A DNA stretch of 64,000 bases from Clostridiales bacterium (GTDB lineage Bacteria; Bacillota; Clostridia; Oscillospirales; Oscillospiraceae), in contig JALFRA010000002.1 of the NCBI GenBank assembly GCA_022785125.1, forward strand, positions 1-64,000. Reading direction: 5' to 3'. A program made the translations under genes and the position numbers. The stretch's first letter is position 1; the number at the start of each line of letters is the position of its first letter. The notes under the pieces are model-generated. The model made no database searches. It was given only the letters and a program-made list of their open reading frames with translations, and was not told the DNA's origin. Positions 15,654 to 30,364 of the stretch are shown in pieces.

Positions 15654-16144
15654 GATACGCTCCTCCTATTTTGATTTGGCAGTCCGGTGCATAACTATTA
15701 TGGATCGATGTGTTGTCAGTTTTAGGTTTAGTGTAGTTTATCATGGAGCCCATAGAGATTCAAGAGATTAGGCTTTACTTTTAGCCAAATCATATTTGCG
15801 GAATAATCTGAAAGTATAAATTTTCATAATTTATATTTATACGTTTGCCCCGCCAATCTGTAAAACGGTACCAAATCCGCTATTTTCCTGTTCTAGTATC
15901 TTTTTCTGCTTTCTTTGAAGCAATACCGCTACTATCATGTAATTTCTGAACCGCCGTTCCTCAATCCGCGCATGGACCACTATCTGGAATTTGAGTCGGA
16001 ATACTAGAAAATGACTCTTTTACACCACTTAAAAGTACGCTGCCGGATATCGGAATCCAATTCCGGATGCCTCAAAGTTCTAAACCCCTTCAGAAATCCG
16101 AGGATCAAAAAAGCAGCTCACTCTGTACCAACAGGCATAAAAAT
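15654..16144. other. Gene-poor region left of the guaA element
   Basis: AT-rich stretch without a convincing gene. A 36-codon open frame on the plus strand ending in DHYLEFESEY-stop (TAG at about 16006) has no start codon and may be the relict 3' end of a gene. Before insertion of the element this sequence lay directly downstream of guaA. Confidence 0.4.
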
Positions 16145-16186
16145 GCCGCAAACTCTTGTACAGCAAGAGTTTGCGGCGCTTTTTTC
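16145..16186. terminator. Bidirectional terminator, probably the original guaA terminator
   Basis: 14-bp arms GCCGCAAACTCTTG / CAAGAGTTTGCGGC with a five-base loop, followed by GCTTTTTTC on the plus strand and ATTTTTATG on the minus strand. It lies immediately beyond the left attachment repeat, where the terminator of guaA would have been before insertion, and now serves the herA operon. Confidence 0.75.
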
Positions 16187-16196
16187 ACTCCCACTC
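16185..16196 (-). repeat. Left attachment repeat (att)
   Basis: Minus strand GAGTGGGAGTGA matches 11 of 12 bases with the end of guaA at 29075-29086 (GAGTGGGAATGA), in the same orientation. Confidence 0.75.
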
Positions 16197-16296
16197 GCTC
16201 CTGTCAGAAGTTTTCTAAACGGATTTGCTTATGGGATTTAGTTCAGGGTATTGGCATTATTTCCATTATTCAGATAGTAGAGGCTATCTGATTTTT

Positions 16297-16315
16297 TGTT
16301 GCCATGGTGTTGCCA
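16297..16315 (+). repeat. Integrase arm-type boxes, left end
   Basis: Two direct copies of TGTTGCCA start at 16297 and 16308, 11 bp apart, about 100 bp inside the left att. The same pair occurs near the right att. Confidence 0.6.
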
Positions 16316-16358
16316 GCATTCGTTCTGATTATATGTCCAAGATGCTTGCTGTTCAAGC

Positions 16359-18131
16359 CTATTCTTTTCTCCAACGCCTAATTACTTCGTCGAACGCAAT
16401 ATCAATCCAGTCTTTATTCCATTCATCATAGACGTTCACATTACTGGAGTTAGGAACTGGATATGGCATATCCATTTTGATAACAGCTGGTAGTGGAACA
16501 GCATCACCGACAGCTAAACATTCTCCCGCTGAAAGTGTAGGGAGTACATCTACTAAAGAAGCATTATTATCTGGCAACAGATTTTTTATGCAATTTTGGT
16601 CATTTACATTTGTTAACTTAAGCACTAAAAAGTTATTGCACTGAGAAAAAATAGTCTCTGATACTTCGGATGGACGTTGACTCACAACCATTAAATTTAG
16701 TCCATACTTGCGCCCTTCCTTTGCTATTCGTTCAATAGAATGCTTGGAAGCTGCATATTCCGCTCCACCATTTTTAGGAATATAATTATGAGCCTCTTCA
16801 CAAACAAGCATAAATGGTATATCGTTAACTAGGCCATCTTGATGTCTAATCTTAGAATAATGAAAAGCAAAGTCAAAAATAATCCGCGAAAGCAAGCTAA
16901 TGACGATACTCAAGACTTCGAATGGGATAGCGCTTAAATCTATAATGGTCACGTTGCATTTATCTATATAACCCAAGAATTGTTTAAGAATTTCTGCAAA
17001 GTCTTGGGTTGTATACTGTTCCCCAGAGTTTCTTTTGGGGGCTGTAATAAACTTCAAACGTTTATCTGAAAGCTTTGTTTCTAATCGCGTTACAAATCTT
17101 TCAAACTCCCCATTGTATGGACCTGGTGATGCCTTAGACTCTTTAGATGTACTGGTAGGTGCAAATTCAATTTCTCTAGTGAGATAGACTGTATCTGGAT
17201 TTTCAATCAATGTTCCATCAATTTCTTTAGGGAGGCGAGGGCTTCCCTCTTTCTTATTGATTACCTCAGCATTTTTATTTTTGATATAACGATATACTTC
17301 TTCGATATCAAAATAAACTGGAGTATCATATGTGATATGCTCCATTTCAGGATTATGCTTTTCTTTGCTCAGAACAACAGCTTTTTTAAACTGGGAAATT
17401 TGATTGTGCGAATTCATTTCGTTGCTTTCAATGAAAAGTGATTCCAATTCCTGTGAATTCATCAACCAATACGGCAAGCACAGCTTTTCAACGTCCAAGC
17501 AATTTAAACTAAAAGCTTCTTGCTCATCCAACGTAAACGCTGATTGATACTCTGAATGAATATCAAAAATAATAACATGTGAATTTTTGAGAGATCCTAC
17601 ATTTTCATTGTGCCCCTGGTTGATCTTCATAATGTTTTGTAACAGTCTTGCAACTGCACAAGATTTTCCGGACCCTGTTGAACCAACCACCGCAATATGC
17701 TTTCCGAAAAAACGATTACCATCCACGAAATATTTTACCGTTTTGTTATTAGAAAGTTGTCCAACATAAAAGGAAAAATTATCATTGCTGCTAAATATAG
17801 CATTAATAATTTCATCCTCAGGTATGTATACAGGTTCTGTTGGAGATGGCAAATTAACTCCACCCTGCCTAAAATGAATACCATCTTCATCTTCCGAATA
17901 GCAACCAATGGGAGAACATGAGAGTGTATAACTAATTGGTTTTGCATCATTTGACTGTACAGCCGAAATATTCTGGATAGCGGCAAGAATTTTAAGATCA
18001 TTGCCATCCTCAATTACCACATATCTAGAGATTCTAATGTTAGGTTTATTGTTTTCGAATACTTCAACATCTTTTAATATCACCTGAATTGTGCCTGGTG
18101 TACTAGCAATAACTTTACCAATCTCAATCAT
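16359..18131 (-). CDS. herA: HerA-like hexameric ATPase/translocase
   Basis: 590 residues of the HerA/FtsK (DUF87) class. An N-terminal beta domain (1-125) is followed by Walker A VVGSTGSGKSCAV (148-160), Walker B FMLVCEEAHNYIP, and the arginine/sensor region REGRKYGLNLMVVSQRPSEVS. HerA ATPases load DNA and work with nucleases. The gene follows the nuclease stop by eight bases, and its ribosome site (GGAGGAG) lies within the nuclease C-terminal codons, so the two are coupled. Pairs of a DUF4297-type nuclease with HerA are a known anti-phage arrangement, so this one probably drives or gates the nuclease encoded upstream. Confidence 0.88.
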   Translation of the reverse strand: MIEIGKVIASTPGTIQVILKDVEVFENNKPNIRISRYVVIEDGNDLKILAAIQNISAVQSNDAKPISYTLSCSPIGCYSEDEDGIHFRQGGVNLPSPTEPVYIPEDEIINAIFSSNDNFSFYVGQLSNNKTVKYFVDGNRFFGKHIAVVGSTGSGKSCAVARLLQNIMKINQGHNENVGSLKNSHVIIFDIHSEYQSAFTLDEQEAFSLNCLDVEKLCLPYWLMNSQELESLFIESNEMNSHNQISQFKKAVVLSKEKHNPEMEHITYDTPVYFDIEEVYRYIKNKNAEVINKKEGSPRLPKEIDGTLIENPDTVYLTREIEFAPTSTSKESKASPGPYNGEFERFVTRLETKLSDKRLKFITAPKRNSGEQYTTQDFAEILKQFLGYIDKCNVTIIDLSAIPFEVLSIVISLLSRIIFDFAFHYSKIRHQDGLVNDIPFMLVCEEAHNYIPKNGGAEYAASKHSIERIAKEGRKYGLNLMVVSQRPSEVSETIFSQCNNFLVLKLTNVNDQNCIKNLLPDNNASLVDVLPTLSAGECLAVGDAVPLPAVIKMDMPYPVPNSSNVNVYDEWNKDWIDIAFDEVIRRWRKE

Positions 18132-18139
18132 ATACTACT

Positions 18140-19429
18140 CTACTCCTCCAATCTCATGGACAGCCATACCAAATATTTAAGCGTCGCTGTGTCCGCAACA
18201 TCAAGATATTCTATAGAATAATTGGAGCTTTCTAAAGAATACCCATTCTCTCCGATAATATATAACTGATTAACACGGCATTTTTCTAATATTTCTGACG
18301 AAATATTTTGAATCTGAGTCATCTTACAAGCAAAATCTGCTGCACAGTATGTATCGCAAATAAAACTATCAGCAATAAATTCGTTGCCAATTAATCCGGT
18401 ATTTACAGATCTCTGATATTTATACAAGCTAATCAATACCGTCTGTAGTAAAGCCGAACTACCATCTCCAAAAATAAAAATAGGTTGTTTTTGCAACTTT
18501 CGCTTTTTGAAATATTTATCTAAATATTGAATGATAAACGGAAAAATTGTTCCTTGATTCTTTTCTAAAAAATCATCAGAGAACACAAAGGCTCTAACAC
18601 TCGAATTCGAGGAAAAGTATGCTTTTAAAAAATCCCGTTTGCTTCTTAGCAATTTAACTCTATCTAGTGCCTCTAAAGTCCATTTTGTAAGCAACACTGA
18701 TTTTTGCGTACTTAAATAGTCCAACAATTCAACCTTTGTAATATTTCGATCATCTTTATTAGGCTTGGCAGATATAGTTGCAACTAAAGAAAATGCATTA
18801 GGATAATATAGAGCTTCTGCAGTATCTACACTTACTAATTCTGCAAAAGATTGAATAATTTTTTCTTGCAGTGCATCAAACTGTTCAGCCGGAATATAAG
18901 TAAAGCATTTCCAAAATTCCAATATATCAGTTCGCAATACGAGTTTATTCCTGTTAATTTTATAGTAAGCTAAAATTTTATCCTTGTCATCTTTGCTCTT
19001 TTGCGGCTTGTTAGCTATTTTCAGTATTTCTGAATCCGCTATAGTATATATTCTATGGAAATATTTAACAAGAATTTCTTTGTCATTTGTAGATTCAAGA
19101 AAATCAGAAAAAGATTTTAAGGATACTGTATCAACATTTTCTTCATAATAGGCGTAAAGAATATACGAAACAGACTTTCCGAGTACAGAACATTCGCAAT
19201 AGTGGCACAACATTTCCAAAATTGGTGCTACTACACTTGAAATTTGATATTTTTTGTCTTCATGATATTTACACTGGATTGTGGTTAGGCTGGTAGGTGA
19301 TTGAATATCAATGTCCTCAATAACACCTTCAAGGGTAACTATTTCATCATCTTTTGATTGCAAAATTTCATAAATAGATTTGTTAAATTGATATAGGTAT
19401 CCTTTAATCGTACTATCTGCTTGCCTCAT
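18140..19429 (-). CDS. DUF4297/Cap4-like DNA nuclease
   Basis: 429 residues, starting at MRQADSTIKG after GGGTGG. The first 60 residues carry the pattern of DUF4297/Cap4-type PD-(D/E)xK nucleases: STIKGYLYQFNKSIYEIL, then Glu34 (VTLEGVIEDIDI), Asp41 and Gln52-Cys-Lys54 (TTIQCKYHE). The other 370 residues are alpha-rich, not recognised, and end with EYLDVADTATLKYLVW; they may contact HerA or sense infection. This AT-rich gene shares an operon with HerA downstream and two methylases upstream. The assignment rests on motif pattern only; a structure prediction would settle it. Confidence 0.65.
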   Translation of the reverse strand: MRQADSTIKGYLYQFNKSIYEILQSKDDEIVTLEGVIEDIDIQSPTSLTTIQCKYHEDKKYQISSVVAPILEMLCHYCECSVLGKSVSYILYAYYEENVDTVSLKSFSDFLESTNDKEILVKYFHRIYTIADSEILKIANKPQKSKDDKDKILAYYKINRNKLVLRTDILEFWKCFTYIPAEQFDALQEKIIQSFAELVSVDTAEALYYPNAFSLVATISAKPNKDDRNITKVELLDYLSTQKSVLLTKWTLEALDRVKLLRSKRDFLKAYFSSNSSVRAFVFSDDFLEKNQGTIFPFIIQYLDKYFKKRKLQKQPIFIFGDGSSALLQTVLISLYKYQRSVNTGLIGNEFIADSFICDTYCAADFACKMTQIQNISSEILEKCRVNQLYIIGENGYSLESSNYSIEYLDVADTATLKYLVWLSMRLEE

Positions 19430-19512
19430 ATTATCACCACCCACCCTATAACGAGATATTTTGATCAGGCATAAGTGTCACATATCTACAATGGTATATT
19501 TTACACAGAGCA

Positions 19513-21138
19513 TTATCCTCGTCCTAATCTTCTCCTCTGCATTTTTTTCCAAATGCCCCTACATCGAGAACAAACATCCTGTTCAATGCCTAACAATTTA
19601 GTAAGGACTTCACGATCCACCAAATCTAGTGCTTTTTCAATGTCATCATCGTTTCGGACGACGTGATCTATTTCTTTCAGAAGTTCGCTTCTAAATACAG
19701 GGTCAATGCATTGGATTTTAGGAATCAAGATATTACCCATTTCTCCCGGAAGGATTTCAAGAACGCCTCCACCGTAACTTCTACCACAGATTTCCGTAAA
19801 TGCAAAAGAAACGCTGTTGTAATATGCAAGAAGGACATTTTCAGGATCTACACCATCCTTGAATTTCATCCTGTGCATAGTATCCGTTGATACTGCACCG
19901 CAACAGTTGAGGACAAATTTGGGATAAAGGTTATTTCGTCGCAGGAAAAAGGCATCTGGAACCCAAACAGAAGGAACGATATACCATCTATCACGAATCG
20001 AGCATTTGTAGCCTACATGTTCACTCCTTGCTTCCCCTGCCATGATATAATCCCTATACCCTTGGGGATAATCTTCGTATGGAGCATCAGGAAATCGGAC
20101 TAAACGGGCCGGTTTACCCGCTGCTTTATTCAAATTCCAATCAGCTTCGGTAAAATAGATTCCATGTGCATGAGAACTCCGTCCGATTAGCGGGAGCGTT
20201 GCTTCTTCTAGACGATAATGATTAGAGACTGCTTCTGTAACAGAAAAATAGCCATTGTTTCCAGTAGTAATACCGACATTTATGAGCCCATATTCAGAAA
20301 ATTTTGCAAAACGATTGTCAGCCCTTAACTTTTGAATTAACTTCATCTCATCGCCGTTGATGAAGTATTTTGTCCATTTTTCCTTGACATGCTGCACTGG
20401 TTGAAAACCGTTTGAGGCCAAATCCAAAGCATCGAATCCGCTCAGGTCATTCATTTCGATAATTCGGATGCCTTTTTCCGCATCTCCTTTTTCGCCTATA
20501 AAGACTACAACCTCTTGTTCAATATCAGGAAAAACGAGCTGTTCAAAGGTGATCAGAGTAATTTTAGCAAGGTGGTTCGCCAAGTAGAGCCGGAGATCTT
20601 CTGCATAGGCAACTTGCAGAATCTCCGCAGGAATCACAAATGCAATTTTGCCTCTTTTCGAAAGCATTTGTACACTCGCTACCATGAATGCAACCCAAGC
20701 ATTGATTAGCTTATTGGATTTCATGCCATGAGAAGTTAGTATCTGGGCCTGACACTCCCTTTGACTTTCTTTTAGGTATTGATAACGAATATAGGGAGGA
20801 TTTCCCAAAATTAAGTCAAAAGTTTTCTTACCCAAAGCCTCCTTGTAGAAGTCGAAGAAATCCTGATTGATCACTTTTACCTTCGGAGTGTCTTTATACC
20901 TATCAGATACTTTTTGAGCTTCTGGTGCTTCAATTTCAACCGCCTCAATTCTGCTGACTTTGTCAAGCAAGCCGGTCTCTTTTAGGCTGTCGAGAAAGAC
21001 ACCATCTCCACAGCTTGGCTCCAATACGGTATCAATATTTTCGGACGCAAAAAGGCGCACCATAGCATTTGCCAGCTTCTGAGGAGTGTAGTACGCTCCT
21101 CTTAATTTCTGTTTTGAACTGTCCTTTTTGAGTCTCAT
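19513..21138 (-). CDS. Eco57I-type N6-adenine DNA methyltransferase
   Basis: 541 residues. The N-terminal class I methyltransferase has YYTPQKLANAMV, motif I TVLEPSCGDGVFL (37-49) for S-adenosylmethionine and motif IV LILGNPPYI (109-117), the catalytic NPPY of N6-adenine methylases. Residues about 270-480 resemble a target-recognition domain of Eco57I/TaqI-like enzymes. A small paired-Cys tail (VCSRCRG) ends the protein. No nuclease motif is visible. It begins 15 bases after the type IIG gene and may modify the second strand of the same target or a different site. Confidence 0.88.
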   Translation of the reverse strand: MRLKKDSSKQKLRGAYYTPQKLANAMVRLFASENIDTVLEPSCGDGVFLDSLKETGLLDKVSRIEAVEIEAPEAQKVSDRYKDTPKVKVINQDFFDFYKEALGKKTFDLILGNPPYIRYQYLKESQRECQAQILTSHGMKSNKLINAWVAFMVASVQMLSKRGKIAFVIPAEILQVAYAEDLRLYLANHLAKITLITFEQLVFPDIEQEVVVFIGEKGDAEKGIRIIEMNDLSGFDALDLASNGFQPVQHVKEKWTKYFINGDEMKLIQKLRADNRFAKFSEYGLINVGITTGNNGYFSVTEAVSNHYRLEEATLPLIGRSSHAHGIYFTEADWNLNKAAGKPARLVRFPDAPYEDYPQGYRDYIMAGEARSEHVGYKCSIRDRWYIVPSVWVPDAFFLRRNNLYPKFVLNCCGAVSTDTMHRMKFKDGVDPENVLLAYYNSVSFAFTEICGRSYGGGVLEILPGEMGNILIPKIQCIDPVFRSELLKEIDHVVRNDDDIEKALDLVDREVLTKLLGIEQDVCSRCRGIWKKMQRRRLGRG

Positions 21139-21153
21139 CTAAACTAACCTCGC

Positions 21154-24150
21154 TTAATATTCAAGACGATAAACTCTCTCAATTAGGCCTTGAATTTTAT
21201 GGATAAGAGCATTTTTCTCATCCTGCAGCACTATGGCAATACGTTTTGCTGGATGATTCATAAGTTCTGCATTTATGCTGTAAATTCTATGACTGGCAGC
21301 AACTACACTGTCATGAATTTCTTTTTGTTTTCTATCGCTAAAATCTAGTTCGACAAACGGTAATGTTGACAGTACAAAAGTACCTCGTGCTGTAAATCCG
21401 TTCTCAAAATCGCTTCCTACAATCTCCAGGATCTTTTCAGTAATTGGATTAGACAGCCATGCTTGGAGATATTCCAGCGCATATGGACTTCCTTCCTTTT
21501 TAGAAACCGCACAGTAGCCTGCAGTTCCACCAGAAGCAATCAGAATATCGTTGGTATCCAGAATATACATCGGCTCTTTACTCAGCACACCTACAATTAA
21601 CTTGGGGGTATTGATAAAGGCAGTCAAAGCTTGTGTTCTTCCATATTGATACCACGTATCGGGAGTAGCATTAGGAACATCCCGAATACCTTGATCAGAC
21701 ACACATTTGGGGACCAAACGATCATAGTAGTCTTCCAAATATGCAAATGTCCCCGGGAAATGAGATTTCATATAGTCAATCGTGAACAGCCGCCCTTGCT
21801 GGTCATAAGGGAAAATAATCTGCTTATCAGTTGCCAAGATGCTATATGAATTTAGGCCTTTTTCCGCCTTCTTTGTGGGCTTAAAATACGGGCGCAAAAT
21901 TTCGCGTTCGATCTTATAATGCTTTCCATTCCGGCAAATTTCAATTGCAGTTTCATCTTCCGCTACAATTTCATCTGAGGAGAACCAATAGATAGGAGTA
22001 GGACGTTCCGCACTTGTTTGAATTCCATTGAAGATTTCAGCGTGTTTTGTGATTGGGACAGCAACCTGATCCAGATGTTGGAGCATTGTTAAAAACGCAA
22101 AATCCGTTGTGAGTCTCCAAGGGAGCTTGTTGAGGATAGAGGAGCTAAATTCTATGGAACTGACTTCCTCTCCGACCCACAGCTTATTGGCAGAATCTAC
22201 ACCAGTGTAACGGAATTTCTCCTGAGGAGACTTACATAAAAGGAGGATGGAGCTATAAATAGTCTTGTCCTCAAACAACTGTGCATCCCCAAAATCATCA
22301 AGGCTTACCAAGTAGTTGCCTTTTGCAATTAAGTTCCGCAGATGTTCTCCTGCACCAACTTTGAAAAATTTATTCGGGACAATATAACAAATGTAGCCTG
22401 TATCCTTTATTTTTCTAATGGCTTGCTCAACAAAAATAAAGTACTTATCAAACTGCTTGTATGATGTCTTATACTTTTTCTTATAGATTTCAACCTCGCT
22501 GCTGGGAAGAAGTGCGTGCATACCTTCGGTATTCACATAAGGAGGATTACCAATTATGGCATCAAAGCATTCTCCATTATTGATTTTTTCCCAGTCAAAC
22601 GGGACAATCTCCAATCGCTGGCTATCTGCTCCAGCAATGCCTATCAACTCTTTTTCGCTGACCAAGGCATTGCCAAAGAAAATATTTGCACTTAGGTCCG
22701 GCAAAATAGGCGAAACAGTTTCAACAGAAGGTTCGGTTTCGTTTTCAATCAGTTTGACCAGGAGAGAGAACTTAGCCACTTCTACAGCATGAATGTCAAT
22801 ATCAATGCCGTAGATGCACGAACACAAAAGTTTCTTCTTCTCGGCCAAAGGTAATTTATAGAGATCAATTCCTATCTCTTCCAAATGGTTCTGTTGGCCA
22901 GCATTCAAATACCATTGCACACAATAGTTTTGAAGATAGGAAAACGCTTCTTCCAGAAATACTCCAGAGCCACACGCGATGTCAGCAATACGCAGCTCTG
23001 ACAATTCTTCCGGTGTTTTATTTTGGCAAACCTTGGCCAATGTTTTCTCAACCATATATTTGACAATTTCCGTGGGAGTTGTGACCACGGAACGATTGAG
23101 GCATTCTTTCTTTTGTTGCAGGCCAATCGTGCCGTTTTCTAGCAGAACTAACTGCTCTGTTAAAAACAGCTCATAAATTTTACCTAGCAGATGAGGTTCA
23201 ATAATGTTAAAGAGGTAGGGACTCTGAGGGTAATATAACCCTTCAATCATATCTGTAATAACATCACAAGAGAGATCAAAAATAATGTCATCGCCCGAAA
23301 ACATCCCGGAGTTGTATCTTTGATCCGCAGCTCTAAACAGTTGTTCCAGGCTTTCCTGCAATTGAGCTCTATCTGTAATGGCTTCTTTCAAATTATGGTA
23401 CAGAGGCAGATTTCTGTCCTCACAAATTCTCAGGAAAACAATCTGGTTGATGAATTCCTGCACAACATCATTTAGAACCTCCAAGGAGGTATATCGTCCA
23501 CCTTTCGCGTATAGCTCATTACTCAGAGCAATACGCCAACTGTTAATCTGAGACAAAAACAGTTCATCGACCTGCTGTGTTTGACCACCGGAAGCAGGGA
23601 AATTAGCGTCTAGATATTGATCAAATACACCGGAATATACTACGGCTTTGGAAATCAAGCTGCAAATTTCATCGAGCTTTTCTACATATTCAGAGTAATG
23701 ATAGAGCCGGTAACGTGCAACTGTACAGCTATCGTTTTCCAGCGGAAAATGGCAAGTATCATATATCGCTAAGAACTCGAAGTTAGTTAGAACGGCTACC
23801 CTATGCTTCGCATTCCAACCATATTTTCTGGTCTGAATAGCAGGAGCATCAACTTTCGTAATGTCAACCGAGGGTTTCTTGGCTTCTACGAAAAATTTTG
23901 CTACCCCTCGGAGCGTCATTGTATAGTCCGGACGATCTGAACGCGATGAATAATTTTCAGCAATAACTTCTCTATATTGAGGCGCAGCCCCATTTTCATT
24001 GGCCACGTCCCATCCTAAAATTTTAAGAAAAGGGTCGATAAACTCGATGCGGCAAGAGTGCTCATTGTATGCCTTTTTAGTGTCTTTATAAAAATCTATA
24101 TTTGCATCAAAATGCTCAACCAGCTTTTGAAGTTCAACCTTATTATTCAT
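21154..24150 (-). CDS. Type IIG restriction-modification enzyme
   Basis: 998 residues in one chain. An N-terminal PD-(D/E)xK nuclease has Asp75 in SDRPDYTM, then Glu89-x-Lys91 in FFVEAKKPSVD. A helical connector (about 150-380) leads to the methylase with motif I RIADIACGSGVFLEEAF (387-403) and NPPYV (535-539). A C-terminal target-recognition region (about 640-950) has YWFSSDEIV and SGGTAGYCAVSK. It cuts and methylates from one polypeptide in the Eco57I manner. The start at 24150 overlaps the stop of the HTH gene by eight bases. In this operon it is followed by a second methylase, the nuclease and HerA. Confidence 0.88.
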   Translation of the reverse strand: MNNKVELQKLVEHFDANIDFYKDTKKAYNEHSCRIEFIDPFLKILGWDVANENGAAPQYREVIAENYSSRSDRPDYTMTLRGVAKFFVEAKKPSVDITKVDAPAIQTRKYGWNAKHRVAVLTNFEFLAIYDTCHFPLENDSCTVARYRLYHYSEYVEKLDEICSLISKAVVYSGVFDQYLDANFPASGGQTQQVDELFLSQINSWRIALSNELYAKGGRYTSLEVLNDVVQEFINQIVFLRICEDRNLPLYHNLKEAITDRAQLQESLEQLFRAADQRYNSGMFSGDDIIFDLSCDVITDMIEGLYYPQSPYLFNIIEPHLLGKIYELFLTEQLVLLENGTIGLQQKKECLNRSVVTTPTEIVKYMVEKTLAKVCQNKTPEELSELRIADIACGSGVFLEEAFSYLQNYCVQWYLNAGQQNHLEEIGIDLYKLPLAEKKKLLCSCIYGIDIDIHAVEVAKFSLLVKLIENETEPSVETVSPILPDLSANIFFGNALVSEKELIGIAGADSQRLEIVPFDWEKINNGECFDAIIGNPPYVNTEGMHALLPSSEVEIYKKKYKTSYKQFDKYFIFVEQAIRKIKDTGYICYIVPNKFFKVGAGEHLRNLIAKGNYLVSLDDFGDAQLFEDKTIYSSILLLCKSPQEKFRYTGVDSANKLWVGEEVSSIEFSSSILNKLPWRLTTDFAFLTMLQHLDQVAVPITKHAEIFNGIQTSAERPTPIYWFSSDEIVAEDETAIEICRNGKHYKIEREILRPYFKPTKKAEKGLNSYSILATDKQIIFPYDQQGRLFTIDYMKSHFPGTFAYLEDYYDRLVPKCVSDQGIRDVPNATPDTWYQYGRTQALTAFINTPKLIVGVLSKEPMYILDTNDILIASGGTAGYCAVSKKEGSPYALEYLQAWLSNPITEKILEIVGSDFENGFTARGTFVLSTLPFVELDFSDRKQKEIHDSVVAASHRIYSINAELMNHPAKRIAIVLQDEKNALIHKIQGLIERVYRLEY

Positions 24151-24328
24151 TATCAAACTCCACCTTTCGCTTCTCGTTGGTGGGCTTTTCTGCATTCTCT
24201 GGGATAATCCAAATGCGGCTTAACCGCGTTGCTCCGGGAATCCGATTTGTCTTACACAGTATTTGAACCTGTCGTGAAGTCACGCCCCATTTTTCAGCCG
24301 CCTCTTGAACCGTAATATAACCGTTCAT
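24143..24328 (-). CDS. Small helix-turn-helix regulator
   Basis: 61 residues with an excisionase/MerR-type helix-turn-helix: YITVQEAAEKWGVTSRQVQILCKTNRIPGA, then a strand RIWIIPENAEKP. It is first in the defence operon, behind a promoter whose spacer holds a perfect palindrome (24378-24391), and overlaps the restriction gene. A control protein that times restriction is the likely role. Confidence 0.8.
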   Translation of the reverse strand: MNGYITVQEAAEKWGVTSRQVQILCKTNRIPGATRLSRIWIIPENAEKPTNEKRKVEFDNE

Positions 24329-24371
24329 TGCTCAACACCTCATTCAGCCCAAGATACAAAAAACCATTTTA

Positions 24372-24400
24372 ATTGTATTCGTTTAAACGAAATCTGTCAA
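24372..24400 (-). promoter_or_regulatory. Promoter and operator of the defence operon
   Basis: Minus strand TTGACA (24395-24400), 17 bases, TACAAT (24372-24377). The 14-bp palindrome TTCGTTTAAACGAA (24378-24391) fills the spacer, so a bound protein would block RNA polymerase. Confidence 0.8.
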
Positions 24401-24522
24401 CCTCGATCGCTACAATTTTACCTATTCTCTCATCCTTTCTACATATTCATCTAAATTGTTTGTGAGGTGTACTACATGACAGTCAAAGGTGAGAAGATAG
24501 TCTAGATGCTTCCTGAAAAAAG

Positions 24523-24566
24523 ACAAAAACGCGAGAAGTATACCTTCAACTGATACTGCTTCTCGC
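24523..24566 (-). terminator. Terminator of the 81-aa gene
   Basis: GCGAGAAG and CTTCTCGC arms with a 20-base loop holding a further ATAC/GTAT pairing, followed on the minus strand by GTTTTTGTC. Confidence 0.75.
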
Positions 24567-24581
24567 AGATTTTCTTTGCCA

Positions 24582-24827
24582 TCAATCTAACGGAGTTTTC
24601 TTTGTTACGGCTTTTAGATATAATTCAGGGTCCCCATTCAAAATCAGTTCGGCATAGGCCAGCGGATCGTTGTAGATTAGCCAGTCCAGCTCCGACCGCT
24701 GGTATATGCTGTTTGCCACCTCGTTCTCTATGGCGGTACAGTCAATAGAGAGCAGCGTCCCATCCTCCAAACGCTGCTCCACGCAGGCGGTGTCCATGTT
24801 AAACTCACAGGATACAATCTTTCTCAT
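24582..24827 (-). CDS. Conserved small protein of clostridial mobile elements
   Basis: 81 residues, acidic, no signal or membrane segment: MRKIVSCEFNMDTACVEQRL, then SELDWLIYNDPLAYAELILNG. I recall similar proteins (probably DUF6061) scattered in integrative elements of gut Clostridia; their function is unknown. A good ribosome site (GGGAGG, eight bases) and its own terminator argue that it is expressed. Confidence 0.65.
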   Translation of the reverse strand: MRKIVSCEFNMDTACVEQRLEDGTLLSIDCTAIENEVANSIYQRSELDWLIYNDPLAYAELILNGDPELYLKAVTKKTPLD

Positions 24828-25236
24828 ACTCGTTGCCTCCCAATGCCTTAATTTCGCTTAGCTTTCCGCAGCGGCACAAGGGCCGTTTCGGTTGTTTTAG
24901 ATACTTGCAAGCAATGCGTGTGGATAGCCACACACAAATCCGGCAAGCAATGCGAGTGTTAATACACACTCACATTTCCTGCCGTCTGCTTGTTGAGGGC
25001 AATGCCCCCAAGCCCCCTTTTGAACACAGAATTTCATTCTGTGGCTGCGCGTTCTCCGAACGCTTCTGAGGGAAATGCCAAAACGCTGTAACCCTCTCTA
25101 ACCGGTACGTCATGAAACGCGACGTACCCTATGGAACAAGTTGTTCCACCCACCCGTATCGTTTCGGGAGCTACCGTAAAACAACGTAGCCCTGGAAATA
25201 TAGGGAGGCAAAATATCACCCCGGTTTTTCCTTTCC
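24828..25236. other. Non-coding region rich in inverted repeats, possible transfer or replication origin
   Basis: No gene. It contains several inverted repeats: GTGTGG..CCACAC (24918-24933), GAGTGT..ACACTC (24953-24971), CACAGAAT..ATTCTGTG (25024-25042), GGTACGTC..GACGTACC (25104-25128) and GGAACAA..TTGTTCC (25133-25147). It lies beside the RepA-like ATPase and RHH genes. Similar stretches near relaxase genes act as origins of transfer, but no relaxase is encoded here. Confidence 0.4.
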
Positions 25237-25309
25237 GCGACGGTTGCGACGGTCGCAACGGTGCTGGGAGTACCACTCAAAACACCGTCGCGACCGTTGC
25301 GAGCGTCGC
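25237..25309. repeat. Inverted array of 9-bp iteron-like units
   Basis: Three units of the type GCGACGGTN/GCAACGGTN (25237-25263) are mirrored by three inverted units (25283-25309) around a 19-base centre; the 27-bp arms differ at four positions. It ends four bases before the stop of the RepA-like ATPase gene. It can be read as an iteron origin or a very strong hairpin. Confidence 0.6.
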
Positions 25310-25312
25310 ACT

Positions 25313-26488
25313 TTACCCGATTACTTCAAACGCAGGTGCTTCCACCACCATGTAAATCAGCCGGATACGCCGCCCTTCGTGTTTGATTTTGTACTCATAT
25401 TTCACCTGATGTTCTTCCAGCAATCGGCTGGCATTCACATTCAGATGCTTGGTAAGCCGGTTTACCGCCATATCAGTCTGAATCACCTGGGCCAGCTCCG
25501 TAGGACTCCCTTCCCATTCACGGTTCTCGGAGGATACGATCTTTGCTACGGCTTCCAGTACCGGGTCTGGAGGCTGCTTCCAAAGCTCATTCTCTGCATG
25601 GTCAAGCCCCCAAACTAGGCTCTCTTGGTCTTTGCTCAGATACAACCGCTGATCCGGCTGGTCTCTGCCTACCACCTCCAAGGTTGCCCTGCTATCTGTC
25701 CGCTTCTCCTTCTGCATCAGTAGTGCACCATCCGCACACCCCAGCAAGCCCGTGGTACCCGAGATCATCTCAAAGCTGTCTCCAGCGGGCTGCTTTCTGG
25801 TGTGGTGGACAATCAGGACACAGACGCCATGTCGGTCAGCAAATTGTTTTAGCTTGCCGATTACCTCATAGTCGCTGGAATAGCTGTAACTATCGCTCAC
25901 CTCCTCCCGGACCTTTTGCAGGGTATCCACGATAATCAGCTTGGTATCAGCGTGTTCCCGGACGAACTTTTCCAGCTGTTCATCCAGGCCGCTGCCGAGC
26001 ATCTTGGCGCTGGTAGCGAAGTGGAGGAAGCTTGTTCCCTCTACACCAAACATGCGGAACATCCGGCGCTGTAAGCGGCTCTCGTCATCTTCCAGAGCAA
26101 GATAAAGGACGGTTCCCTGGTGGACTTTGTAGCCCCACAAATCCTGCCCGGTACTGACATGGTGGGCGATTTGCGCCACCAGGAAGGACTTGCCGATTTT
26201 CGGCGCTCCAGCAAGGATGTACGCTCCTGTATAGAGCAGGTTCTCAATCACCGCGGACTTGCCCTGGAACACATTGTCCATCAGCTCGTCCAGGGTCACA
26301 GTATGCAGGTAAGCCGGGTCGTTCATGCGGCGCATCTTCCGGTAAAGTTCCTCCAAATCTCTTTCCGGGGAATTGCTTTTTTCGTCCGGGTCTGGTATAG
26401 TGGTCTTGGAATTTGTAGAGATTGACTGCCCATCATCTGCGCCAACAGATGAGCCATGGGCGGTCATTTTCTTTTTCTCATCGGTCAT
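25313..26488 (-). CDS. RepA-like RecA-fold ATPase (plasmid replication helicase type)
   Basis: 391 residues. A polar N-terminal tail is followed by a RecA/DnaB-like ATPase: Walker A LAGAPKIGKSFLVAQ, YLALEDDESRLQRRM, Walker B KLIIVDTLQKVRE, then LIVHHTRK and SGTTGLLGCADGALLM. It resembles the hexameric RepA helicases of mobilisable plasmids and of many integrated elements. The C-terminal 100 residues look like a winged-helix segment. The ATG at 26488 follows GGAGG by nine bases and overlaps the RHH gene. It could replicate the excised circle from the adjacent iteron-like repeats. Confidence 0.8.
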   Translation of the reverse strand: MTDEKKKMTAHGSSVGADDGQSISTNSKTTIPDPDEKSNSPERDLEELYRKMRRMNDPAYLHTVTLDELMDNVFQGKSAVIENLLYTGAYILAGAPKIGKSFLVAQIAHHVSTGQDLWGYKVHQGTVLYLALEDDESRLQRRMFRMFGVEGTSFLHFATSAKMLGSGLDEQLEKFVREHADTKLIIVDTLQKVREEVSDSYSYSSDYEVIGKLKQFADRHGVCVLIVHHTRKQPAGDSFEMISGTTGLLGCADGALLMQKEKRTDSRATLEVVGRDQPDQRLYLSKDQESLVWGLDHAENELWKQPPDPVLEAVAKIVSSENREWEGSPTELAQVIQTDMAVNRLTKHLNVNASRLLEEHQVKYEYKIKHEGRRIRLIYMVVEAPAFEVIG

Positions 26489-26813
26489 AGGCAAAGTCCT
26501 CCTGCATCCCGTTCATAATGGTAGCAATCATCTGGATGGTGTCCAGCAAATCATCGTTTACGCCCTGTCCAGCTTCGATCCTGCGCAGCTCGTCCAGCAC
26601 AGCGGCCAGTTGATCCCGCAGCGCCTTGTAGACCCTGGGATTGCCCTGGACCACCACATCTCGGCAAAGCAGCCGCCGGATGATGTAATCCTGTTTAGTC
26701 AAGCCAGTGAGCTTCACCGCCGTCTCGATCTGGGTGTTCTCCTCCGGGGAGACCCGGAAAGCCACGTTCTTGTTCCTCCAACGGTTGTGCTTGTCCAAAT
26801 TCTTTGCTGACAT
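26478..26813 (-). CDS. Ribbon-helix-helix (MobC-like) protein
   Basis: 111 residues. VAFRVSPEENTQIETAVKLTGLTKQDYIIRRLL is a ribbon-helix-helix DNA-binding motif as in MobC/relaxosome accessory proteins; the C-terminal half is helical. Without a relaxase gene in the element it may act as a regulator or help mobilisation by another element. It starts two bases after the integrase stop and overlaps the ATPase gene. Confidence 0.75.
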   Translation of the reverse strand: MSAKNLDKHNRWRNKNVAFRVSPEENTQIETAVKLTGLTKQDYIIRRLLCRDVVVQGNPRVYKALRDQLAAVLDELRRIEAGQGVNDDLLDTIQMIATIMNGMQEDFAYDR

Positions 26814-26815
26814 TT

Positions 26816-27889
26816 TTAATTGCTCCTTTCCATGTTCAATTTATCTGCCATCTCCGCCTGCTTAGACGGAAACAGGTGCGCATAGTTGTAAGTGATGTCG
26901 ATGCTCTCGTGGCCCACCCGGTCTGCGATGGCCGTGGCAGAGAAGCCCATGTCGATTAGGAGTGATACCGCGCTGTGACGAATATCGTGGATTCTGATGC
27001 GCGGCACCCCGGCTTCTTTGGCTCCCCGGTCCATCTCCCGGTGGAGATAACTCTTGGTGACGGTGAACATCCGGTCATCCGGCCCGATCCCGTAGAGCAT
27101 CTTGATGTAATCCTGGATTTCCTCGGCCAGAAATTGCGGCATGGTGATGACTCGATTGCTCTTTTCCGTCTTAGGGGTGGTAATCAGGTCCTCGCCGTTC
27201 AGACGCTGATAGGACTTGTTGATAGACACGGTGCGCTTCTCAAAGTCAAAGTCCGCCGGGGTCAGAGCCAGCAGTTCCCCCTCTCGAATACCGCACCAGT
27301 AAAGCATCTCAAAGGCGTAGAAGGACAGTGGTTTATCCATCATCACCTCGGCAAATTTCAGGTACTGCTCCTTGGTCCAGAACATCATCTCTCGGTTTTT
27401 CTTTTTGCCCATGCTGCCCGCCTTCTTGCAGGGATTCTCCCGGAGGTTGTAGTACCGAACCGCGTGGTTGAAGATGGCACTGAGCTGATTGTGGACCGTT
27501 TTCAGGTACACCGGCGAGTAGGGCTTACCGTTCTCGTCTTTGTGGTTCAGCATCTCGTTCTGCCAAGTGATGATCTGCTGGGCGGTGATGTTGCACATCT
27601 TCAGCCTGCCGAAGTAGGGCAGCAGCTTGGTGCGGATGATATGGTCCTTGGTAGCCCAGGTGTTCTCCTTGAGCCGGGTTTTCATATCCGCCGTGTAGAG
27701 GTCCACGAAACTCTTGAAGGTCATGTCCAGATCAGCGCTGGTCTTGTTGAGCTGTTCGCGCTCCCAGGCCTGTGCCTCCCGCTTGGTCTTGAAGCCCCGC
27801 TTCTGGGTCTGCTTGCGCTCGCCGTTCCAGTCAGTATAGCGGTAGACCGCCCGCCAGGTGTTTGTCTTTTCTTCCTTATAGACTGCCAT
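26816..27889 (-). CDS. int: Tyrosine-type site-specific integrase
   Basis: 357 residues from MAVYKEEKTNTW (AAAGGAGGG seven bases upstream; the open frame before it is non-coding). An N-terminal arm-binding domain with the AP2-like KTNTWRAVYRYTDWNGERKQ, a SAM-like core-binding domain (about 60-160) and the catalytic domain with Arg in CGIREGELL, HDIRHSAVS, GHESIDIT and the nucleophile Tyr in TYNYAHLF. The active site is complete. It is the obvious recombinase for insertion at the guaA 3' end 1.2 kb away. Confidence 0.95.
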   Translation of the reverse strand: MAVYKEEKTNTWRAVYRYTDWNGERKQTQKRGFKTKREAQAWEREQLNKTSADLDMTFKSFVDLYTADMKTRLKENTWATKDHIIRTKLLPYFGRLKMCNITAQQIITWQNEMLNHKDENGKPYSPVYLKTVHNQLSAIFNHAVRYYNLRENPCKKAGSMGKKKNREMMFWTKEQYLKFAEVMMDKPLSFYAFEMLYWCGIREGELLALTPADFDFEKRTVSINKSYQRLNGEDLITTPKTEKSNRVITMPQFLAEEIQDYIKMLYGIGPDDRMFTVTKSYLHREMDRGAKEAGVPRIRIHDIRHSAVSLLIDMGFSATAIADRVGHESIDITYNYAHLFPSKQAEMADKLNMERSN

Positions 27890-27891
27890 GA

Positions 27892-28086
27892 TTAGCCCTC
27901 CTTTCCCGTCTTGCCATAGCAAAACTTCTCCATGAAAAAGTTCCGATTGACCCGCCCGGAGATGGTCAGATAGCCCTTCCCACGGAGTTCTGCGTTGAGC
28001 TTGTGGATCACCTTGTAGGCGTGGGACTTGGAGATGCCCAGCTCCTGGGCCACTTCCTCCACGCGCATAAAGTTTTGTGCCTGCAT
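27892..28086 (-). CDS. xis: Excisionase-like DNA-binding protein
   Basis: 64 residues with a helix-turn-helix MRVEEVAQELGISKSHAYKVIHKLN and a basic tail (GRVNRNFFMEKFCYG), typical of Xis proteins encoded just before Tn916-like integrases. It ends three bases before the integrase start, so the pair is cotranscribed from the promoter at 28252. Confidence 0.85.
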   Translation of the reverse strand: MQAQNFMRVEEVAQELGISKSHAYKVIHKLNAELRGKGYLTISGRVNRNFFMEKFCYGKTGKEG

Positions 28087-28235
28087 TGAAAATACCTTCC
28101 TTTCTTCGTTGATGGCTGCTGCGGATGGATATTGTGTTCCATAAATGCCTCCTCACTTTCGTCCGCCACTTTTTTCCCGGATGTATAACCAGAGATTGCG
28201 GCAGTTCTTTTTTGTTTATTGATTCTAAGCTATTA

Positions 28236-29074: not shown

Positions 29075-30364
29075 TCATTCCCACTCAATAGTCCCCGTGG
29101 GCTTCGGCGTCAGATCGTAGAGCACCCGGTTAACACCCGGCACCTCATGGGTAATGCGGTGGGTAATGTGCTGCAGAAGCGCAAACGGTACGTCCTCCAC
29201 GGTGGCAGTCATGGCATCCACCGTGTTGACCGCCCGAATAATAACCGGCCATTCATCGGCCCGGTTACCATCCCGGACTCCCACGCTTTTGATGTCGGGA
29301 ATGGCGGTAAAATACTGCCACACCTTGCCCTCCAGGCCGTTCTTGGCAAATTCCTCCCGCAGAATGGCGTCGGACTCCCGGACCGCCTCCAGACGGTCCC
29401 GGGTAATAGCGCCCAGACAGCGTACCCCCAGACCGGGGCCGGGGAAGGGCTGACGGTAGACCATGTTGTCAGGTAAGCCCAGAGCCTTGCCGCAGGCGCG
29501 CACCTCGTCCTTGAAGAGCATCTTCAGCGGCTCCACCAGCTCAAAATCCAGAACCTCCGGCAGGCCGCCCACGTTGTGGTGGCTCTTGACTGCCTTCACC
29601 GTCTTGGTACCTGACTCGATAATGTCAGGATAGATAGTACCCTGGCCCAGGAAGGAGATACGCTCCAGCTTGCGTGCTTCCTCCTCAAAGACCCGGATGA
29701 ACTCACCGCCGATGATCTTACGCTTCTGCTCCGGATCAGCAACACCGGCCAGTTTGTCCAGGAACCGATCCACCGCATCCACATAGATCAGGTTGGCGTC
29801 CATCTCATGGCGGAATACCTGAACCACCTGCTCCGGCTCCCCTTTGCGAAGCAGACCGTGGTTGACGTGGACGCACACCAGCTGCTTGCCGATGGCTTTG
29901 ATCAGCAGGGCCGCCACCACCGAGGAATCCACACCGCCGGACAGTGCCAGCAGAACCTTTTTGTCCCCCACCTGACGGCGAATCAGCTCAATCTGGTCGG
30001 CAATAAAGTTGTCCATATTCCAGTTGGCCTCGGCACCGCACACGCCGAAGATGAAGTTGGACAGGGCCTGCTTCCGGGCCTCATCATCCTCAGGCCAGGG
30101 GGCGTCCCCCTTGTGGTCGACCATCAGAACCGGCAATTCACTGTTATAGATCTCTTTGGAGACATCGATCTCCACACCGTCTACCACACGGTTGGGACCG
30201 CCGTTCAGAATAATACCCTTTACGTTGGGCAGCTCTTGTATCTCCGCCAAAGTAATGTCATGGGGATGAATTTCACTGTAAACGCCCAGCGCCCGAACCT
30301 CTCGGGCAATCTTGGCGTTCTCCTTACTGCCAAGGTCCAGAATCAGAATCATGTCCTGCTTCAT
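29075..30364 (-). CDS. guaA: GMP synthetase with a degenerate glutaminase domain
   Basis: 429 residues, about 80 shorter than usual. The ATP-pyrophosphatase half is complete (PP-loop LALSGGVDSSVVAALL) and the dimerisation domain ends in TGTIEWE. In the N-terminal amidotransferase half, ILNGGPN is kept, but the chain jumps from NSELPVLMVDHKG to ALSNFIFGVCGAEANW: the segment with the catalytic Cys (GICYG), His and Glu (HPEV) is missing. The enzyme should therefore use free ammonia, or a glutaminase subunit encoded elsewhere, to aminate XMP. The last codons are the insertion site of the mobile element. GGAGGTACTGCA precedes the ATG. Confidence 0.9.
   Translation of the reverse strand: MKQDMILILDLGSKENAKIAREVRALGVYSEIHPHDITLAEIQELPNVKGIILNGGPNRVVDGVEIDVSKEIYNSELPVLMVDHKGDAPWPEDDEARKQALSNFIFGVCGAEANWNMDNFIADQIELIRRQVGDKKVLLALSGGVDSSVVAALLIKAIGKQLVCVHVNHGLLRKGEPEQVVQVFRHEMDANLIYVDAVDRFLDKLAGVADPEQKRKIIGGEFIRVFEEEARKLERISFLGQGTIYPDIIESGTKTVKAVKSHHNVGGLPEVLDFELVEPLKMLFKDEVRACGKALGLPDNMVYRQPFPGPGLGVRCLGAITRDRLEAVRESDAILREEFAKNGLEGKVWQYFTAIPDIKSVGVRDGNRADEWPVIIRAVNTVDAMTATVEDVPFALLQHITHRITHEVPGVNRVLYDLTPKPTGTIEWE

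Follow-up and report, generated by a model that had tools for sequence, protein, structure and literature searches.

What is a restriction-modification (R-M) system doing in one operon with a DUF4297 nuclease and a HerA ATPase? The question is raised by positions 16359 to 24400 of contig JALFRA010000002.1 (assembly GCA_022785125.1) of a Clostridiales gut bacterium, whose first 64,000 nucleotides, hereafter the window, were analysed as a whole. We consider it likely that this locus is a two-layer anti-phage operon on an integrative element, the 3' part of which is an exchangeable effector slot. The answer is carried by the gene content and its homologies, by the recurrence of the gene order, by the replacement of genes between fixed flanks and by a conserved promoter block, all of which we observed.

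All five open reading frames (ORFs) were found co-oriented on the minus strand, from 24328 to 16359. Genes and control sites are as follows:

24143..24328, minus strand: HTH, a 61-aa DNA-binding protein of the HTH_17 (helix-turn-helix) type
21154..24150 (preferred; listed start 24195), minus strand: IIG, a predicted type IIG restriction-modification enzyme with HSDR_N nuclease, N6-methyltransferase (N6-MTase) and C-terminal specificity region
19513..21138, minus strand: M, a predicted separate adenine methyltransferase of the M.Eco57I type
18140..19429 (ATG at 19429, 429 aa), minus strand: Nuc, a predicted DUF4297 (Cap4-like PD-(D/E)xK) nuclease, first gene of the effector slot
16359..18131, minus strand: HerA, a predicted hexameric ATPase, second gene of the effector slot
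24372..24400, minus strand: sigma-70-like promoter TTGACA-17-TACAAT, 11/12 match, directly upstream of HTH
24378..24391, unstranded: perfect 14-bp palindrome TTCGTTTAAACGAA between -35 and -10, putative operator of the HTH protein

The original prediction had assigned these five identities, and the family searches (Pfam, PADLOC, NCBIfam) bore them out. Its description of the operon as closely packed, AT-rich and led by one promoter also held: HTH and IIG overlap, and the following gaps measure 15 bp (IIG-M), 83 bp (M-Nuc) and 8 bp (Nuc-HerA); GC content is 0.32-0.44 over 16001-25000 versus 0.48-0.61 to the left (10-16 kb) and 0.48-0.59 to the right (25-35 kb); and the promoter given above is the top-scoring promoter-like match within 16-25 kb, although such matches as a class are merely somewhat commoner there than in shuffled sequences (36 versus 24.4, sd 5.2). 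Homology points to a single transcript. The complete five-gene order was found again in the loci L005 and L007, which is more than chance, and M-Nuc-HerA is present in two more loci, L002, which is nearly identical to the window, and L003, both of whose contigs end inside M, so that the adjacency is not unique to the window. Judged from these matches, the operon combines two modules that are each known already, an R-M system of the Eco57I type and a DUF4297-HerA pair.

The R-M module was assigned as follows. IIG matched PADLOC PDLC03604 (2.3e-258) and Pfam Eco57I (2.5e-35) and HSDR_N (2.9e-07), with an NPPY motif at residue 550 of the 1013-aa reading. That reading probably starts too early at 24195; the start at 24150 (998 aa) is preferred, because Met16 is invariant across eight aligned IIG proteins (the window's among them) and this start overlaps the HTH stop. 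The specificity region was assigned by its C-terminal position, where a Methylase_S match is sub-threshold (0.099). M matched Pfam M_Eco57I_C (6.6e-34) and PADLOC PDLC03267 (7.7e-178), with NPPY at residue 113. The module thus has the make-up of Eco57I-type systems, in which a separate M.Eco57I-type methylase accompanies an IIG protein that has nuclease, N6-MTase and specificity regions. It differs from them in that a short HTH control gene opens the operon and an effector slot closes it. The activities of both enzymes are predicted from homology, and in systems of this type the two act on a single recognition sequence. In L007 (541-3531), IIG shares 62% identity with the window protein in its C-terminal part and 73-84% elsewhere, unlike L005, L037 and L038, where the C-terminal part is 78-80% identical; the target site of the L007 enzyme has possibly changed.

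The second module was compared with solved structures. Nuc matched PADLOC DUF4297 (2.8e-39) and HerA matched PDLC02188 (9.1e-169). A profile of eight DUF4297 relatives found the PDB chains 9c1m_A (1.5e-68), 8ziq_A (2e-45) and, chiefly over the N-terminal domain, 8xav_G (1.2e-19), while HerA matched 9c1m_M at 1.3e-229; both proteins align with the solved members over almost their full length. These matches, together with the 8-bp gap between DUF4297 gene and HerA gene, uphold the predicted pairing. The published inactivating changes, D40A/Q53A/K55A in the nuclease and K157A in HerA (PMC11291478), fall by manual count on the alignment at D39/Q52/K54 of Nuc, which are predicted catalytic residues, and at K156 of HerA, within the Walker A sequence GSTGSGKS that starts at residue 150. 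E34, D41 and K54, the residues proposed in the original prediction for a PD-(D/E)xK fold, are likewise invariant among the eight aligned sequences, and the alignment to the solved chains supports that fold; the GSTGSGKS and EEAH regions of HerA are conserved. The pair thus resembles the two-gene DUF4297-HerA system (An et al. 2024, PMC11291478; 9c1m, 8ziq, 8xav) in homologous proteins, gene order and catalytic and Walker residues, and differs from it in forming the 3' part of an HTH/R-M operon and in scoring under the NCBIfam equivalog cut-offs (Nuc 160 of 300 bits, HerA 611 of 850 bits). Because both proteins stay under these cut-offs, which weighs against a simple equation with the known system, we regard the pair, on homology, as a divergent member of DUF4297-HerA.

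DUF4297-HerA complexes have a mass of about 1 MDa. The characterized system cuts E. coli genomic DNA in vitro, is described as lacking phage-DNA specificity, clears host and phage DNA from cells, is active upon assembly, toxic, and works in an abortive mode (PMC11291478). By homology, a cell-sacrificing role is predicted for the window pair. Both that report and a later review (PMC12198126) describe its trigger as not established. In the clostridial loci L003-L009, identity to the window proteins is 80-92% for HerA and, for Nuc, 65-80% at residues 1-138 and 50-55% at residues 139-429; the C-terminal part of Nuc, which changes fastest, might be like a sensor or phage-facing region.

By comparison with related loci, the operon sits in an integrative element of about 12.9 kb at a guaA-like gene, a name that we take from the start of the L004 protein. 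The size follows from a core found at 29075-29086 and at 16185-16196, where the match to L004 stops; the short core GAGTGGGA(A/G)TGA occurs at both the guaA-like 3' end and the right end. The element features are:

16185..16315, unstranded: right element end, common to L038 (after Gabija) and L004 (after HerA)
16185-16196, unstranded: right attachment-like (att-like) sequence GAGTGGGAGTGA, where the match to L004 ends
29075..29086, unstranded: left att-like core GAGTGGGAATGA, 3' end of the guaA-like gene
24582..28156, minus strand: mobility-side genes, namely DUF6061, AAA_25 ATPase, NikA-like mobilisation protein, xis-like HTH and tyrosine integrase

L004 (Agathobaculum, genome G534) shares this backbone with the window, with identities of 98% for the integrase (residues 60-446), 95% for the NikA-like protein, 93% for the AAA ATPase, 88% for DUF6061 and 90% for HTH. 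Three cargo states were found. The window carries HTH, R-M and DUF4297-HerA. L038 (genome G709) follows it at 72% DNA identity from HTH to at most 185 bp from the end of M, then has Gabija, after which the right end returns with 85% DNA identity over 131 bp. L004 matches at 84% over HTH and at 77% over Nuc-HerA and the right end, and has no R-M genes. Comparison of the three shows that the R-M part and the effector part both come and go between fixed flanks. We rejected an obligate five-gene unit, since R-M is absent from L004 and tblastn found no match to DUF4297 in the IIG loci L037-L044. Immediately beyond the right end, 16144-16178 is predicted to form a stem of 16 pairs on the plus strand, with T runs after it, and of 14 pairs on the minus strand; it is terminator-like in both directions.

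The same replacement is seen in relatives of the R-M module, a breadth of pairing beyond what the original prediction could see. A search with IIG among 394 genomes of the order (1e-30) gave matches in 10, namely the window's own genome, eight with fetched stretches and G707 (a partial match, outside further reading), and two scans of viral contigs supplied further IIG/M loci. As near relatives we counted loci with an M at least 45% identical and an IIG gene or fragment before it, found through IIG or M and not through the effector; with duplicates removed and the window excluded, these are L037, L038, L039, L040, L041, L044 (IIG truncated), L054, L055, L056 and L058. In nine of the ten, a defence gene or a fragment of one starts on the same strand 10-188 bp downstream of M. 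Their identities are PADLOC annotations and not tests of function:

L037: Shedu, 2e-111
L038 and L040: Gabija, two PADLOC subfamilies
L039: AAA_13/PDC-S06, 3.8e-39
L058: AAA_13/PDC-S06, 2e-14, then PDC-S11
L041: GmrSD-like, HEPN, SIR2 and HerA
L044: truncated SIR2, 3.6e-24
L055: Stk2-like kinase, 1e-44
L056: PHP-ATPase with a partial Ppl match, 9.9e-18

In L041 (1036-6283), genes for GmrSD_N-like, HEPN, SIR2 and HerA proteins and one further gene follow M in one run, which may be two effector sets stacked. As a control, the nearest sizeable gene upstream of the operon, beyond HTH, was scanned in nine of the ten loci (not L044; in L040 it lies on the opposite strand) and was a defence gene only in L054, which gives 9/10 downstream versus 1/9 upstream (Fisher p 0.001). 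Counting two marginal upstream matches as well, a generic HTH in L041 and CARF (9e-4) in L055, the comparison becomes 9/10 versus 3/9 (p 0.02). The clearest exchange is among L055, L056 and L058, which are related contigs of the viral collection: the two upstream neighbours are 42-67% identical, the best downstream matches 48-83% and the R-M proteins 50-70%, while the slot proteins have no mutual blastp match at 1e-5. The slot protein has been swapped in synteny between matching flanks.

Several loci lie outside this count. Duplicate viral loci were removed (L057, L061, L067, L068, L069, L071, L075). Also set apart were M-only loci (L066, L070, whose contig begins at M, and L073), the downstream genes of which had no PADLOC scan (one L070 gene has a Pfam RdRP match); IIG loci with no visible M (L036, L059, L060, L062-L065); L076; L003, L005 and L007, which were found through the effector; and the distant loci L042, L043, L072, L074 and L077-L081. 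IIG had zero matches in phage records at 1e-40, and two family draws for further M genes gave 1/95 and 1/88, both loci already in hand.

Several points weigh against the slot as a general property of this R-M lineage. L054 has no effector after M; an opposite-strand recombinase gene follows, and Lamassu genes stand before IIG. In L076 (M 46% identical), M precedes IIG and no defence gene is annotated between or directly after them; scored as a miss, it lowers the count to 9/11. Among distant colinear IIG-M loci (33-40%), only three of six have a slot gene or fragment (LmuA/LmuC in L042, an AAA fragment in L043, a split GmrSD-like gene in L072), the others being L074, L079 and L080, the last with a Gabija-like pair upstream. 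IIG homologues were also present in 32 plasmid records, six of which were read; by annotation, in none of the six is the R-M pair followed directly by a defence gene on its own strand. The statistics are a guide only, as the loci are few and related and their ORFs were called by a longest-ORF rule. Moreover, defence genes cluster anyway, so that the diversity of the slot could be stacking with no cooperation, and slot effectors need not all be suicidal, since Gabija of P. aeruginosa PA14 is described as non-abortive (preprint PMC12407980).

The control region is shared by loci with different cargo. The HTH protein, which matched Pfam HTH_17 at 7.6e-06 (26.5 bits, just under the cut-off of 27), is 80-90% identical in L004, L005, L007, L037 and L038, and the promoter block with TTCGTTTAAACGAA stands upstream of HTH in six loci, among which four types of cargo occur. 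TTCGTTTAAACGAA is unchanged in the window, L004, L005 and L007 and has one change each in L037 and L038, where the first promoter hexamer is weaker. Upstream of HTH, the DNA homologous to the window begins at the promoter (24393-24403) in L005, L007, L037 and L038; for L004 it begins at 24456. The pattern TTCGYTTAARCGAATAYAAT has a single occurrence in the window's own genome, and a pattern search found the palindrome pattern absent from the viral contigs. L041, with an HTH protein 55% identical, has no palindrome block, and in L040, L042 and L043 IIG is preceded instead by an XRE/Cro-type HTH gene. The conserved palindrome suggests that the HTH protein is probably an autoregulator acting on its own promoter. 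We infer an autoregulated control cassette able to drive R-M plus effector or, as in L004, the effector alone.

DUF4297-HerA also occurs apart from this R-M module. Eight clostridial loci (L002-L009) have a full-length Nuc, with readable upstream DNA in seven, as L009 starts 58 bp before Nuc. An Eco57I-type module precedes Nuc in four of the seven (L002 and L003, with only part of M on the contig, L005 and L007). L006 (2-3213) has a second R-M type directly upstream, with genes for an endonuclease of the AlwI family and a methylase of the D12 class, while L004 has the HTH gene only and L008 a DUF3990/HTH pair; neither of these two has a methylase gene directly upstream. Nineteen plasmid records matched DUF4297, and 16 regions were read, with H9-H11 (additional A. 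tumefaciens copies) outside them. An ATP-binding, DUF87 or HerA gene follows DUF4297 in 15 of the 16, and transposase genes in L050. By annotation, which is incomplete, a DNA methylase lies within 6-8 kb in three (L020, L022, L053) and in none of the other 13. Eight regions (L020, L023, L024, L025, L046, L047, L048, L052) carry beside DUF4297-HerA an annotated 'DNA repair exonuclease' and a large partner gene, which is AAA or YhaN-like in six regions and hypothetical in the other two. Together they are presumably an SbcCD-like pair, another recurrent DNA-end enzyme partner of DUF4297-HerA.

Full-length DUF4297 relatives are rare: 1/391 genomes of the class (protein query), 2/394 of the order (plus two weak partial matches), 1/150 of the window's own family, 1/398 of the phylum (plus three genomes with partial matches) and 1/87 of the family of G534. 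The window's own genome was the sole match or among the matches in every survey except the last. Zero matches were obtained with the DUF4297 profile in viral contigs and with the protein in phage records. Not counted separately were L002, as a near-identical copy, and L012/L019, from the same genome as L004; not taken as relatives were L011 (a 17-residue match) and L010 (a 138-residue fragment). In L010 (10001-10414), this nuclease-domain remnant is 71% identical and adjoins a PDC-S01 gene, with no HerA match in the locus.

From these data, the operon would work as follows. The HTH protein would probably repress its own promoter through the spacer palindrome. In a first, sequence-specific layer, IIG would cut unmethylated target sites, with IIG and M methylating those of the host. 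In the second layer, DUF4297-HerA, once unleashed, would degrade DNA indiscriminately and sacrifice the infected cell. The slot would be exchangeable: there, the same R-M lineage carries Shedu, Gabija, SIR2-HerA, AAA_13 ATPases, a kinase or a PHP-ATPase. How the layers relate can be read as stacking, as licensing by DNA ends or as guarding; these are sub-cases of the architecture, to which our estimate above applies, and do not exclude it.

The two modules may share a promoter simply since insertion after M is tolerated, with no functional cooperation. Defence genes do cluster in mobile DNA and each module was found without the other, and we give this reading a substantial chance, if somewhat short of even. 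The strong bias toward a downstream, co-directional, short-gap position and the replacement between fixed flanks speak against it; what these two observations argue for is shared expression, not yet cooperation.

The boldest reading, which we put forward tentatively and at a rather low probability, is that DNA ends produced by the R-M layer would license the slot effector. Cuts by IIG at unmethylated sites would leave double-strand ends in phage DNA, and the slot would be filled by systems that sense such ends or breaks or load on them, as the DUF4297-HerA ring would; host protection by methylation would in this case be indirect. Dependence on DNA ends has been described for Gabija, Shedu, Lamassu and Ppl (PMC12904381), and activation by breaks for the anticodon nuclease RloC (PMC3874168). 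Several points weaken the proposal: L056 gave only a partial Ppl match; the family matched by the AAA_13 slot proteins is PDC-S06, which does not make them RloC; Lamassu genes stand after M in no locus but the distant L042; and neither the kinase nor the SIR2 effectors fit in an obvious way.

The main rival to licensing by DNA ends is a guard relation by analogy with PrrC/EcoprrI, in which the R-M proteins would keep the slot effector inactive, or phage anti-restriction inhibition of R-M would free it. It would accommodate many effectors in one place behind a single R-M lineage and has the PrrC precedent and the hypothesis of immunity-suicide coupling behind it (PMC12707154, PMC3506569); furthermore, DUF4297-HerA is active on assembly and toxic (PMC11291478), and therefore something must restrain it. 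We nevertheless consider guarding unlikely: one R-M lineage would have to recognise all the unrelated effectors, and DUF4297-HerA also stands behind an AlwI-like R-M system (L006) or none (L004, L008). The original prediction had suggested that IIG/M methylation may directly shield host DNA from the HerA-nuclease complex, and methylases and nuclease do stand side by side in the operon; this is nevertheless very improbable, because the characterized complex has no phage-DNA specificity, cleaves genomic DNA of E. coli in vitro and empties cells of host DNA too (PMC11291478), and no adjacent methylase is present in L004 and L008 or annotated in 13 of the 16 plasmid regions.

Comparable architectures are known. 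EcoprrI-PrrC is likewise an R-M operon with a built-in suicide-type effector (PMC12707154, PMC3506569), but it is a type I system with an embedded anticodon nuclease, whereas the window lineage has another R-M type and many unrelated effectors, so that the likeness is one of architecture alone. BREX operons contain variable back-up effectors inside an epigenetic defence system (PMC12839542); the window core differs in being a two-protein Eco57I-type system with an IIG protein far under the PglX cut-offs. Membership in BREX was rejected, as IIG reached 57 of 500 bits with BREX-1 PglX and PglX models were the only BREX models among the matches listed. MADS (methylation-associated defence) was rejected as well: HTH matched mad1 at just 0.0022, and the matches of M to mad2 (1.9e-20) and HerA to mad8 (1.4e-21) were far below the best families. 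Of the rest of the mad gene set, no mad3-mad7 was among the matches listed (for the two methylases, the best 25 of 65 and the best 25 of 60).

R-M loci with built-in suicide genes have been proposed as a principle (PMC3506569), accessory genes coupled to R-M systems have been noted (PMC12707154) and modular defence hotspots have been described for Pseudomonas islands (PMC12629846). In the open-licence literature, surveyed in part, we recognised no Eco57I/IIG operon described as having an exchangeable effector slot. What is new is this architecture, both modules themselves being known.

What was one odd operon thereby becomes a natural series, a single restriction lineage being joined to many anti-phage effectors, sometimes within the same element and, in several loci, under the same promoter block. 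The idea of restriction with a suicide back-up (PMC3506569) becomes testable by slot swaps behind a fixed R-M core, and coupling to R-M is a concrete candidate for the trigger of DUF4297-HerA.

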